Shown: piece after piece, positions 60,517 through 64,000 of the stretch
How positions within the stretch are numbered: position 1 is the first letter of the stretch
Layout of the letters: each line of letters begins with the position of its first letter
Assembly: GCA_945888325.1 (NCBI GenBank)
Contig: CAMDAC010000002.1
Location: forward strand, 1 to 64,000
Reading direction: 5' to 3'
Length of the DNA: 64,000 nucleotides
DNA from: Candidatus Sulfopaludibacter sp. SbA3
GTDB taxonomy: Bacteria; Pseudomonadota; Alphaproteobacteria; Caulobacterales; Hyphomonadaceae
Position numbers and translations under genes: made by a program
The notes under the pieces: generated by a model
The model's database searches: none
Seen by the model: only the letters and a program-made list of their open reading frames with translations
What the model was told of the DNA's origin: nothing

Positions 60517-60970
60517 AGCGCGGCGCGTAGGAAACCGGGAAGTTCACCGACCGCGCGATGAAACAGACCTTGTGGATCTGGTGGTGAATATCCTCGGCCT
60601 TCACAAGGTCCGCCCCGCGCGCCACCTTGATCACGGGCCTGAGTGTCGCCGAAAGAAAACGCCCCGCGCCGCCCGGCCCCGCCTCTCCCACGCCGACAGG
60701 CTCGTCCCGGTAGTCATGCACCACGATGCCCGCATCGCTGGCATAGTGCAGGTACCAGAGCATGTGACACGCCGAGAGCGAGGACAGCAGCATGTCCTCC
60801 GGATTGGGGCGCGACGGGTCGCCGCCAAGCAGCGGATCATTCGAGCACGCGATCACCGGCTTGCCGGGCGTCTCCACCTGCCAGGTCCGGTCATAGGCCT
60901 TGTAGTGCGCCGTGCCCTCGCCCCGGTTTCCGGTCCAGGCGACCGTGGCTGTATAGTCATGCGTTTTCAT
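60503..60970 (-). CDS. OsmC/Ohr family peroxiredoxin
   Basis: 155 residues. Two redox-active Cys of the family: NPEDMLLSSLSACHM (first) and HKVCFIARSVNFPV (second). Reduces organic or osmotic-stress peroxides with a dihydrolipoyl-type reductant. N-terminal MKTHDYTATVAWTGNRG. Start ATG 60970 overlaps the GFA gene stop by 4 nt. Confidence 0.92.
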   Translation of the reverse strand: MKTHDYTATVAWTGNRGEGTAHYKAYDRTWQVETPGKPVIACSNDPLLGGDPSRPNPEDMLLSSLSACHMLWYLHYASDAGIVVHDYRDEPVGVGEAGPGGAGRFLSATLRPVIKVARGADLVKAEDIHHQIHKVCFIARSVNFPVSYAPRFIEV

Positions 60971-61479
60971 GTGGGGTCTCCTTCGGCGCCTGCCGGATAA
61001 ATCTCGCTGAACCGCACCCACAGCGCGGGCCGCGTCGTCTGGAAGCTTTCCACCACCAGCGCGTCCTCCGCCGCCACCGCGTCGGCGGCTGCAAACTCAG
61101 TCCAGATATGCGAGGTCGCAATCGCCCAGGTGCTGTCGTCCAGCGTGCCCGCGCAGAGGATGACAAGGTCCGGTGCCACTTCGGGCAGGTGCCACATCCG
61201 CGTGCCGCACGCCGCGCAGCGTTCGATGTTGATCCCGTTTCCGCTGCCGCCCGTCCGCCGGAACGTGTCACGGGCGCCGCCGCTGATCTCCAGCGCGTCT
61301 TTCGCCACGTGCAGGAACAGGCCGAACGGTCCGCCCGAGAGGCGCTTGCAATCATCGCAATGGCAGGCGTTCACAGCCTTGGGCTTCGCCGTCACGGCGT
61401 AGCGCACGGCGCCGCAATGGCACCCGCCCTGTATCGGCAGCTTCGGCAAGGGCGGGCGGGTGACGGCGATGCGTTGCAT
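60967..61479 (-). CDS. GFA family (glutathione-dependent formaldehyde-activating-like) protein
   Basis: 170 residues. GFA zinc-binding Cys: GGCHCGAVRYAV, CHCDDCKRLSGG and CAACGTRMWH. Named after glutathione-dependent formaldehyde-activating enzyme (Gfa), though many members have unproven activity. ATG 61479; followed by the OsmC gene in the same operon. Confidence 0.92.
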   Translation of the reverse strand: MQRIAVTRPPLPKLPIQGGCHCGAVRYAVTAKPKAVNACHCDDCKRLSGGPFGLFLHVAKDALEISGGARDTFRRTGGSGNGINIERCAACGTRMWHLPEVAPDLVILCAGTLDDSTWAIATSHIWTEFAAADAVAAEDALVVESFQTTRPALWVRFSEIYPAGAEGDPT

Positions 61480-61588
61480 GCCCCGCCTTCTGCCCGCTCT
61501 TCCGTAGACGCACAACCGGCAAACCCGCATGCCTCAATTGTGCCGGCATGCGGCGTGACCTTCGCAATCTGCGGAGCCGGGAGTGCCC

Positions 61589-62323
61589 ATGAGATACCAG
61601 AGCAATCCCTGCCGTCTACCGAAGCTCTGGGACCTCGTATACGGTTGCCTCGAACGCTGTGGAGAATTGCCCTCCGAACGGGTGATCTCGAATACGCGCC
61701 ATCTCATTCACGAGATCGCGGGCATCGGCGCCGACTGGAAACAGGCAGTTTGTTATCTCTACGTCACACCCGACAACACCGCCGGGTTCCTCAAGGAGTG
61801 GAGCGACGGAGAGATTTTTCTGCTGTGGCATGGCCACATACTGGCGTCTTGTCCTGGCGGCGAACCGACGCCGGACGTGATGGATCTGATGAAACGGCGT
61901 TACGGCTATGAATCTCCACTCGCCACGACCCGCCTGAATTGTGCCGTGATCGTCAGTCACCGTGTTAGCGTCACATCTCCGGACGCACGCTCCATGGATC
62001 AACCTGAAGCCCAATCCCATGCCGCCCGTTTCGCCAAGCATAAATCCGATACGCCGTCCAAACCCCGCAGCCATGCCGACCAGCTGATCGCCCGCAACGG
62101 TCATCAGGTCCACATGCTGAAAGCCAAGGACACGACCGGACGCTGGGCCTGTTATTTCGTGTATGTCGAGCCCGTCAGGGAGGCGGCTTTTCTAGCCGCC
62201 ATCAAGGGCGACGGCATCATTGAACTCGACGGCTATGGACGCGTCATAGCCTTCTCCTATGGCGAGGAGCCGACCGATGAAATTCGCCGTTTCCTCAAGA
62301 AACAATACGGCTTTGACGTCTGA
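61589..62323 (+). CDS. Unrecognised protein with a duplicated ~65-residue domain
   Basis: 244 residues from ATG 61589 (GGGAG 7 nt upstream); the frame opens at 61583. Two similar units: about residues 45-107 (WKQAVCYLYVTPDNTAGFLK, then EIFLLWHGHILASCPGGEPT, ending KRRYGYES), and about 182-244 (WACYFVYVEPVREAAFLAAI, then IIELDGYGRVIAFSYGEEPT, ending KKQYGFDV). Between them lies a low-complexity stretch, including MDQPEAQSHAARFAKHKSD, that could be read-through of a former intergenic region. No signal peptide or membrane helix. Neither unit is recognised. Probably a fusion of tandem duplicated genes. Confidence 0.8.
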   Translation: MRYQSNPCRLPKLWDLVYGCLERCGELPSERVISNTRHLIHEIAGIGADWKQAVCYLYVTPDNTAGFLKEWSDGEIFLLWHGHILASCPGGEPTPDVMDLMKRRYGYESPLATTRLNCAVIVSHRVSVTSPDARSMDQPEAQSHAARFAKHKSDTPSKPRSHADQLIARNGHQVHMLKAKDTTGRWACYFVYVEPVREAAFLAAIKGDGIIELDGYGRVIAFSYGEEPTDEIRRFLKKQYGFDV

Positions 62324-62368
62324 CGCCGCGTCCTTGACGCCCCTGCCTGCCTCGCCGAAGGTCTGAAC

Positions 62369-63295
62369 ATGAAACGCGCCCTTGCCCTGACTGCTCTCGC
62401 CCTCGCTGCCTGTACCAGCGTGCCCGCCTCAATCGCCGAGGCGCCTGCAGCGCCGGCCGGCGAAGCCGCTCCCGCCTGGCGCCCGGTCGATCCGGACAAC
62501 CTGATCATAATGGAAGTGCCGACCGGCACGGTCGCCATCGAACTTTTCCCCGAGGCTGCCCCGGCGCATGTCGCGCGCCTGCGCGAGCTCCTCGCCGAAG
62601 GCTTCTATGACGGCGAATTCTTCTACCGCGTCATCGACGGCCATGTCGCGCAGGCCGGCCGCGAATTCGCGATGGCCTCGAAGGCCTGGACGCCAGTGCC
62701 CTTCGAAGCCGAACGGGCCGTCTCCGCCGAAGGCTTCACGCCGCTCGGCAGCGCGGACCTGTTCGCGCCGGAGGCTGGCCACCGTGCCGGCTTTGCCCTG
62801 GGCCGCGACGGCGGGCAGGAATGGCTGATGAATTGCCCCGGCGCCCTCGGCATGGCGCGCGACGATGCGCCGGAGACCGGCAACACCGAAATTTACATCC
62901 CGCTCCAGCCGCGCCGGTACCTCGACCGGAACTATACGATCTTCGGCCGCGTCATCGCCGGCATGGAACATGTCCACCGCCTGCCCCGCGTCGATCCGTT
63001 CACGGAAGAAGAGATGAACGCGCTGTTCGGCGAGGATGAACCCCTCGCCCAGCAGATGGCGCAATACCGCCGCTCGAAGAACGAGTACAATATCATCACC
63101 TCCGCAAAGCTCGCCTCTGCGATTCCCGAGGCCGAGCGCCCGGCCTACGAAGTGATGGACACTGCCTCGGCCGACTGGGCCGCCCTCAAGGAGTCCAAGC
63201 GCGACTATTCCGCGATTCCCGCCTTCATCGCCCCGCCGGTCAACAAGCTCGACATCTGCTCGCTGCCGGTTCCGGCGAGAAAAGTCGGCGAGTAA
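62369..63295 (+). CDS. Peptidyl-prolyl cis-trans isomerase (cyclophilin type), lipoprotein
   Basis: 308 residues. Lipoprotein signal LALTALALAAC (Cys15), Ala/Pro linker, then a cyclophilin domain: VPTGTVAIELFPEAAPAHVARL, FYDGEFFYRVIDGHVAQAG, GFALGRDGGQEWLMNCPGALGMARDD, with IFGRVIAGMEHVHRL at the end. A ~100-residue C-terminal extension (ending KLDICSLPVPARKVGE) is extra to the core. Probably a periplasmic folding helper at the envelope. Confidence 0.9.
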   Translation: MKRALALTALALAACTSVPASIAEAPAAPAGEAAPAWRPVDPDNLIIMEVPTGTVAIELFPEAAPAHVARLRELLAEGFYDGEFFYRVIDGHVAQAGREFAMASKAWTPVPFEAERAVSAEGFTPLGSADLFAPEAGHRAGFALGRDGGQEWLMNCPGALGMARDDAPETGNTEIYIPLQPRRYLDRNYTIFGRVIAGMEHVHRLPRVDPFTEEEMNALFGEDEPLAQQMAQYRRSKNEYNIITSAKLASAIPEAERPAYEVMDTASADWAALKESKRDYSAIPAFIAPPVNKLDICSLPVPARKVGE

Positions 63296-63471
63296 CGCAC
63301 CTCCTCCAACCTTACGCATTTATAATCTGCCCCATTTCCTACAGGATTCAGGGAGTTAGCCCTGTCTGCCGCGCGCCTGCGCGCAAAGCCGCGAGCGCCC
63401 GCCTTGCCAGTTTCAAGGCGCCATAGTTTCGTCAGATTTCGGCGAGGCGGAAGGCTGCGGGGCAAGTGACA

Positions 63472-64000
63472 ATGGCGTTCGAAGGCAAGGCACAGGTCGC
63501 GGAGAAGCCCGCGGAATTTGAAGCGCGTCAGACCGGGCGGCGCTGTTTCGTCATCCTGCCCTATGCGGCGCCGAGCACGCCGAACGGGCCGGTGATCGAC
63601 TTCGACGCGGTGTTCCACGAGATCATCCAGCCGGTCGCCGAGGACCTGGACCTCGACTGCATCCGCTCCGACCGGGTCAGCCGGTCCGGCCTGATCCACC
63701 GCGAAATGGTCGAGAACATCATCGATTCCGATGTCGTCATCGCCGACATCTCGCTCGGCTCACCCGACATCTTCTTCGAGCTCGGCATCCGCCAGGCCGC
63801 GCGGCGCGCCGGCACGGTCGTCATGTGCCACTCCGGCACCGGCGAGGATTTCAACATCACCGGCGTGCGCGCGCTCGACTATGAGCTGCCGCCCGAAGGC
63901 GCGCCTGCGCGGGCGCAGATCCTTGCCGATTGCCGCGCCCTGCTGCGCACCCACATCAAGAACAGCCTCGACAACCGGGCGACGGATTCGATCGTCCACT
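63472..64000 (+). CDS. TIR-like/nucleoside-deoxyribosyltransferase-like domain protein (3' end cut)
   Basis: 176 codons visible and open to the right edge. Rossmann-like domain: RRCFVILPYAAPSTPNG, VIDFDAVFHEIIQPVAED, SGLIHREMVENIIDSDVVIADIS, then LGSPDIFFELGIRQAARRAGT. The D-I-S..S-P-D-I-F-F-E-L-G motif matches the NAD/nucleoside-processing superfamily that includes TIR-like domains and nucleoside 2-deoxyribosyltransferases; proteins of this kind often carry a TRAF-binding/TPR extension. The true function and C-terminus are outside the window. ATG 63472 lacks a strong ribosome binding site; a perfect TATAAT (63321-63326) sits in the 176-nt gap upstream. Confidence 0.8.
   Translation, partial: MAFEGKAQVAEKPAEFEARQTGRRCFVILPYAAPSTPNGPVIDFDAVFHEIIQPVAEDLDLDCIRSDRVSRSGLIHREMVENIIDSDVVIADISLGSPDIFFELGIRQAARRAGTVVMCHSGTGEDFNITGVRALDYELPPEGAPARAQILADCRALLRTHIKNSLDNRATDSIVH

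Follow-up and report, generated by a model that had tools for sequence, protein, structure and literature searches.

Introduction

Fused tandem gene duplicates are characterized by a repeat unit, an in-frame junction and relatives that carry the gene as a single copy. All three features are common to an open reading frame (ORF) encoding 244 residues in the stretch of DNA analysed here, which spans 64 kb and is referred to as the window. Compared with fused tandem duplicates in general, this ORF differs in two respects: its junction retains spacer with a 10-base core, and divergence has brought one half down to 28% identity.

Clusters like that of RcGTA, the gene transfer agent (GTA) of Rhodobacter capsulatus, are known in Alphaproteobacteria (PMC6821227), and the sections of this source available to us contain no mention of the domain that makes up the ORF. 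In family f202 of another alphaproteobacterial order, genes for this domain sit in head clusters that encode capsid, portal, prohead protease and terminase; the one cluster tested resembles that of RcGTA. The window gene, in contrast, lies elsewhere, flanked by GFA and peptidyl-prolyl isomerase (PPIase) genes, in a genome without a capsid or portal match. A third comparison is provided by the effector-associated domains (EADs) of bacterial conflict systems, for which Pfam holds models. The domain is likewise small, is predicted to be alpha plus beta, and sometimes ends large multi-domain proteins; unlike an EAD, it matched no EAD model and occurs as a single copy in the matching cyanobacterial genomes.

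Results and Discussion

Two copies of one domain in a single reading frame

The ORF is real and runs on the plus strand from an ATG at 61589 (with an alternative GTG at 61583) to a stop codon ending at 62323. Regulated read-through or an unusual genetic code was dropped as an explanation of the ORF, the frame being open under table 11. The features of the locus are as follows.

60967..61530, minus strand: GFA family gene (PF04828), upstream flank
61531..61588, plus strand: spacer before copy 1, with the core AATTGTGCCG at 61536 and a ribosome-binding-like GGGAG
61589..62323, plus strand: fused ORF, 244 residues, two copies of one domain with translated spacer between them
61589..61921, plus strand: copy 1 (diverged), domain part about 61673–61912, from BLASTP, the predicted order H-E-E-H-E-H and neutral simulation
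61913..61993, plus strand: linker of 27 codons, resembling an intergenic spacer, with the core AATTGTGCCG at 61937
61994..62323, plus strand: copy 2 (canonical), equivalent of the gene that G001 and G010 carry once (65–67% identity), domain part about 62075–62317
62369..63295, plus strand: cyclophilin-type PPIase gene (PF00160), downstream flank

The neighbouring genes typed here encode GFA, OsmC, glyoxalase and PPIase proteins. The downstream PPIase gene has a match in 38 of the 42 genomes of the genus. A further ORF, cut by the window end (63466–64000), presumably resembles nucleoside 2-deoxyribosyltransferases or TIR-like proteins.

A preliminary description of this ORF had proposed two units of about 65 residues that share a set of sequence motifs. 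These motifs are present, and the existence of two copies of a shared domain between 61589 and 62323 is borne out by BLASTP: residues 29–108 in copy 1 align with residues 163–243 in copy 2 at 28% identity over 81 residues (E 1e-11, single comparison). The proposed size needs correction, since the alignable stretch comprises about 80 residues. When copy 1 was compared with 15 other rows of the family, 11 matched at E < 2e-5, led by the gene of G010 (7.0e-13), the domain of the cyanobacterium G650 (9.0e-13) and the gene of G001 (9.9e-13; all E-values for the 16-row set). Matches to the Runella protein (0.32), G453a, G453c (0.012) and G261d were weak or absent, two of the 15 rows remaining unmatched. 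Given the similarity of copy 1 to both copy 2 and the family rows, the repeat is real. The domain of copy 1 contains only one gap, of a single codon; the N-terminal likeness of copy 1 is weak.

AlphaFold2 models predict the same order of helices and strands for the domain of both copies, H-E-E-H-E-H, with pLDDT values of 74.0 and 73.4. Both models were built from the same six aligned rows and are not independent. The predicted elements of copy 2 are H27–34, E39–45, E51–58, H60–70, E82–89 and H95–105; those of copy 1 are H30–35, E40–46, E52–59, H61–72, E82–89 and H95–105, preceded by an extra low-confidence helix at 13–20.

The linker resembles the spacer in front of single-copy relatives

Two genomes of the same genus, G001 and G010, contain a single gene of 111 residues at this site, flanked by the same GFA-type and cyclophilin-type PPIase genes. 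Its start codon corresponds to the in-frame ATG at 61994 to which the preliminary description had drawn attention. In these relatives, the spacer before the single gene starts with CCTCAATTG(T/C)GCCGG. The same motif stands before copy 1 in the window and again, as CCTGAATTGTGCCG, within the linker, where 14 of 15 bases are identical to the upstream spacer. Matches as good were reached by 1 of 2000 dinucleotide shuffles when the linker was compared with its own upstream spacer, by 1 of 2000 with the spacer of G010 and by 0 of 2000 with that of G001. The 10-base core occurs at the two listed positions and nowhere else on either strand of the window. Read from the sequences, the distance from the core to the ATG is 53 bases for copy 1, 57 for copy 2 and 56 in G010. 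The starts of the two copies are 405 bp apart, a multiple of three. These observations agree with the earlier suggestion that the link between the units is translated spacer, and the check proposed with it, a search for single-copy relatives and for a likeness of the linker to their intergenic spacer, gave the predicted result.

Other relatives differ. G022 contains a broken copy of the gene with an in-frame stop, and G030 contains one diverged copy. In G039, the nearest relative by PPIase sequence (96%), the two flanking genes adjoin with no domain gene between them. Overall, the domain is matched in 5 of the 42 genus genomes and in 5 of 150 relatives, the window genome being included in both counts. 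Relatives with the same full-length fusion and a conserved linker had been named as an observation that would speak against a fusion event; no second fused example was found among the 150 relatives or the 42 genus genomes, with five matching genomes in each set. In the window genome itself, the only matches to the domain are the two halves of the ORF. Elsewhere, G692 carries two unfused family genes in tandem, 28 bp apart (L101:1989-2703), and a pair of neighbouring matches in G707 has a similar layout.

A fused tandem duplication in ORF 61589–62323, as first suggested from the raw sequence, is well supported because the units are related, the corresponding site in two relatives is occupied by a single copy, and the linker contains the spacer core a second time. 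The gene could have arisen by tandem duplication of a unit of about 400 bp consisting of spacer and gene. Loss of the stop codon of copy 1 would then have joined the two frames, with the 405 bp offset keeping the second copy in frame. What the window presents, on this account, is a fusion with its seam still legible as translated spacer between two copies.

Ancestry of the two copies

In a tree of 59 domain rows, copy 2 forms a clade with the genes of G001 and G010 (96/94). This clade nests inside family f202 of the order to which G261 belongs (hereafter the home order), where it joins three f202 sequences with support of 98/86. The grouping of copy 2 with members of f202 is thus supported, and each half of the ORF matches members of the family from other taxa. 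The nesting of the copy 2 clade within another order suggests that the domain gene entered the Hyphomonas group by lateral transfer.

The position of copy 1 is less straightforward. It joins the diverged gene of G030, with support of 94/83 in the 59-row tree and 85/84 in the 16-row set. Copy 1 may be a young duplicate with a fast clock, or it may descend from an older, G030-like paralogue that once stood in tandem with the copy 2 gene, in which case the ORF would be a fusion of old paralogues and contain no fresh duplicate. The low identity between copies 1 and 2, compared with the 65–67% that copy 2 shares with G001 and G010, is consistent with such a history. The join with G030, however, unites two long branches, and the tree program flags it as possibly false; with the 59 rows, a topology that holds copy 1 together with copy 2, G001 and G010 cannot be rejected (p-AU 0.195). 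In the 16-row set, copy 1 also scores above the level of G030 in matches to G010 and G001. The repeated spacer argues in the same direction, but the same trace would be expected if spacer and gene had been duplicated long ago. On balance, we regard the older paralogue as somewhat unlikely. Like the tree, a comparison of the DNA sequences counts against our preferred account, since it places copy 1 closer to G010, whose score was equalled by 1 of 1000 shuffles, than to copy 2, for which the figure is 25 of 1000.

Constraint on copy 1 and the site of translation initiation

If the ORF is a fused tandem duplication, copy 1 could still be a decaying duplicate whose frame is open by chance, with copy 2 alone functioning as a protein translated from ATG 61994. 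Several observations are compatible with this scenario. Codon usage per codon is poor in copy 1 (-0.088; 0.038 for its domain part alone; 0.072 for copy 2): the value for copy 1 lies below the 5th percentile of real in-frame genes (0.038), and both copies fall within the range of antisense frames (median -0.141, 95th percentile 0.12). Changes on the copy 1 branch are distributed nearly evenly over the three codon positions, at an estimated 38:35:41 per 100 codons with saturating third positions. The gene is missing from the site in G039 and broken in G022, and the start at 61994 is conserved. Finally, the frame upstream of the single gene of G010 is open too (270 codons are listed from a GTG), so a stop-free spacer alone is nothing unusual at this site.

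The protein sequence of copy 1 speaks against decay. In a neutral simulation with the same number of base changes, which is lenient in that the model contains no indels, 333 of 4000 runs stayed free of stop codons at the observed divergence. None of the 4000 reached the observed similarity at the protein level (BLOSUM score 144, neutral mean 23.9). The short N-terminal part of copy 1 taken alone is indistinguishable from neutral (791 of 4000 runs). The single 1-codon gap in the domain likewise counts against a decaying duplicate. Our reading is that copy 1 is constrained, but loosely.

The ribosome-binding sites point the same way. Calculated duplex energies between the Shine-Dalgarno region and the 16S end are -6.9 at 61589 and -3.2 at 61994, compared with -6.6 and -6.4 for the single-gene starts of G001 and G010; for random stretches of the window, the 5%, 25% and 50% points are -7.7, -5.3 and -3.1. 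These values are modest evidence that the second start has decayed. Because the site at 61589 is stronger, this position is most likely the translation start. A promoter scan of 61300–62500 returned no promoter-like site and does not decide the choice of start. In view of these data, we consider it clearly unlikely that copy 1 is a decaying passenger of copy 2.

An unnamed domain family

The domain had been described as belonging to no recognised family, and this holds for curated collections: Pfam, NCBIfam, PHROGs, PADLOC and the PDB sequence search contained nothing above the curated cut-off, so that we treat the family as unnamed. An SPK match to copy 2 stayed below the cut-off of 22.1 bits (19.9 bits, E 0.00085) and was treated as chance, as were sub-threshold matches of LicD and cholinephosphotransferase models to the Runella protein and PHROG matches at E 0.05–0.1. 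Foldseek searches of the PDB gave no convincing structural relative (best E 0.61 for copy 2 and 0.87 for copy 1). The same applies to viral structures (best E 0.021 at a TM of 0.29) and to a second fold comparison (best Z 2.8). No relative was found in a phage collection queried with the Calothrix protein, nor in IMG/VR queried with the Nostoc domain alone, a query that finds close relatives only. A plasmid search returned two records with the domain. A literature search by context terms, which was not exhaustive, found no paper on it.

The domain is not rare, and it is common in another alphaproteobacterial order. In the home order, 84 of 131 genomes carry the domain according to profile A5, in which G261 and G453 are represented. 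With profile A3, the frequencies are 3 of 385 genomes in the class of the window genome (own genome included), 2 of 148 in the order of Calothrix and 2 of 292 in its phylum. The A5 search used a stricter E limit than the A3 searches of the class and the Calothrix order. The contrast is rough, because the profiles differ. Genomes of the home order measure 0.9–3.3 Mb. Those of family f193 are near-complete at 0.9–1.6 Mb and mostly contain one domain match each; by eye, four of the five f193 loci that were read lie near a miaA-like gene. Together, these features suggest that the home order may be Rickettsiales, broadly defined.

The domain gene is a frequent neighbour of capsid genes

Several genomes of family f202 have the domain gene in a neighbourhood that includes genes for terminase, portal, prohead protease and an HK97 capsid protein. 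In the three sister sequences of the copy 2 clade (L112–L114), the domain gene and the terminase gene are oriented divergently, with about 30–50 bp between them. Capsid genes were searched in 41 selected genomes, comprising 40 of the 84 domain-bearing genomes of the home order and the window genome, and were present in 34. Among the domain matches listed, at least 22 of these 34 genomes have a domain gene no more than 2.5 kb from a capsid gene, and these 22 come from five families; uniform placement around one capsid gene in 2 Mb would produce 0.27 of 34 by chance. Excluding the seven genomes whose neighbourhoods had been read beforehand leaves at least 16 of 27 near a capsid gene, again among the matches listed. 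The 12 of 34 genomes that, by the same matches, have no domain gene near the capsid gene are all three from f193, all five from f196, one from f200, two from f179 and one from f202; in some of them, the two genes are on separate contigs. In G720 (L102, L103), the domain is matched 26 times in one genome, and two of these matches flank the capsid gene.

The relationship of these clusters to RcGTA rests on the one cluster tested, that of G756. The best solved relative of its capsid protein is Rcc01687 of RcGTA (1.9e-77; next best 4.3e-46), and that of its portal protein is Rcc01684 of RcGTA (3.7e-96; next best 1.7e-14). To our knowledge, no RcGTA protein belongs to the domain family, and the PDB sequence search with the domain profile returned none. 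A role in conjugation was set aside in favour of the frequent capsid neighbourhood. It had been considered in view of a VirB8-type neighbour at L027 and of a plasmid of Runella (Bacteroidota), on which the domain gene stands beside a gene for a conjugative coupling protein; both types of neighbour were seen at single family genes, and a frequency is known for the capsid neighbourhood alone.

Proposed role of the window protein

We propose that the protein originally served an RcGTA-like particle as an accessory, where it may have bound a head or packaging protein or controlled particle production. The gene would have reached the Hyphomonas group laterally and then been lost or broken in several lineages of this group. 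The window genome, which is 99.94% complete, contains no match to capsid or portal families, and neither do G039, G022 and G030. G010 has capsid and portal matches and G001 (84% complete) a capsid match only, on contigs other than that of the domain gene. The idea that the genus retained capsid and domain together is not supported, capsid matches occurring in 2 of 5 domain-bearing genomes compared with 21 of 37 others. In the window host, the gene may survive as a fused two-domain binding protein in which copy 2 keeps the canonical surface, while copy 1, less strongly constrained, would have drifted and might serve as its partner within the molecule. The fused protein thus has the look of a descendant that has been orphaned and is under loose constraint; its function is inferred.

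As a whole, we consider it probable that the window gene encodes a tandem-duplicated and fused GTA-accessory domain that was laterally acquired and survives as an orphaned two-domain binding protein. A broader proposal is possible, and we hold it tentatively, with somewhat less than even confidence: the domain may be a widespread, unrecognised accessory of RcGTA-like GTAs that repeatedly escaped, that duplicates, fuses and decays in hosts without particles, and that has also joined large cyanobacterial proteins. The window gene would then be a fused and partly re-purposed escapee. What makes the family worth attention is that an unnamed domain lies near the capsid gene far more often than expected by chance in one alphaproteobacterial order, with up to 26 matches per genome. 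If it proved to be a particle component or regulator, it would offer a handle on how GTAs are built and controlled outside Rhodobacter, and on how their parts spread.

The domain at the end of large proteins

The large proteins take several forms. On a Nostoc plasmid, the domain forms the C-terminus of a protein of 1050 residues with sub-threshold HTH and NTPase matches. Another protein, of 1102 residues, starts with a SAV_2336-type part, matches HEAT and ends in the domain. In G650, the domain ends a protein of 687 residues (L111:2937-5000), the counterpart of which in Calothrix (43% identity, 2e-160) has a HEAT match and is encoded by a separate gene adjoining the domain gene (the pair at L014:1122-3252); in this organism, the domain occurs alone, as a protein of 84 residues. 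Under the broader proposal above, the large cyanobacterial proteins would have captured the domain, perhaps to sense phage-like particles or to act as a decoy for them.

These architectures, in which "STAND" is an interpretation of the Nostoc protein, and the presence of a caspase-family gene some 2 kb away from the Runella plasmid gene would also fit an EAD-like adaptor of STAND/HEAT conflict systems, with the window protein as a stray adaptor, a reading that we judge very unlikely: adaptors of this kind are found repeatedly within one genome, on core as well as effector proteins (PMC7159879), whereas each matching cyanobacterial genome contains one match, the window genome has no second copy on an effector outside the two halves of the one ORF, the domain matches neither PADLOC nor, above the cut-off, Pfam, and the typed neighbours of the window gene are the GFA, OsmC, glyoxalase and PPIase genes.

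Besides G650, a second cyanobacterium (L104) has a longer fusion. Long N-terminal tails preceding the domain (L096, L097, L098, L105, L107, L109 and others) contain a motif like S/G-F-A-x-R/K-F/Y, which was chosen after the tails had been seen. It occurs 13 times, spread over 11 of 15 tails, whereas shuffled tails contain it 0.16 times on average. Its equivalents are SYAARF in the G001 and G010 genes and SHAARF in copy 2 (61994–62040 of the window).
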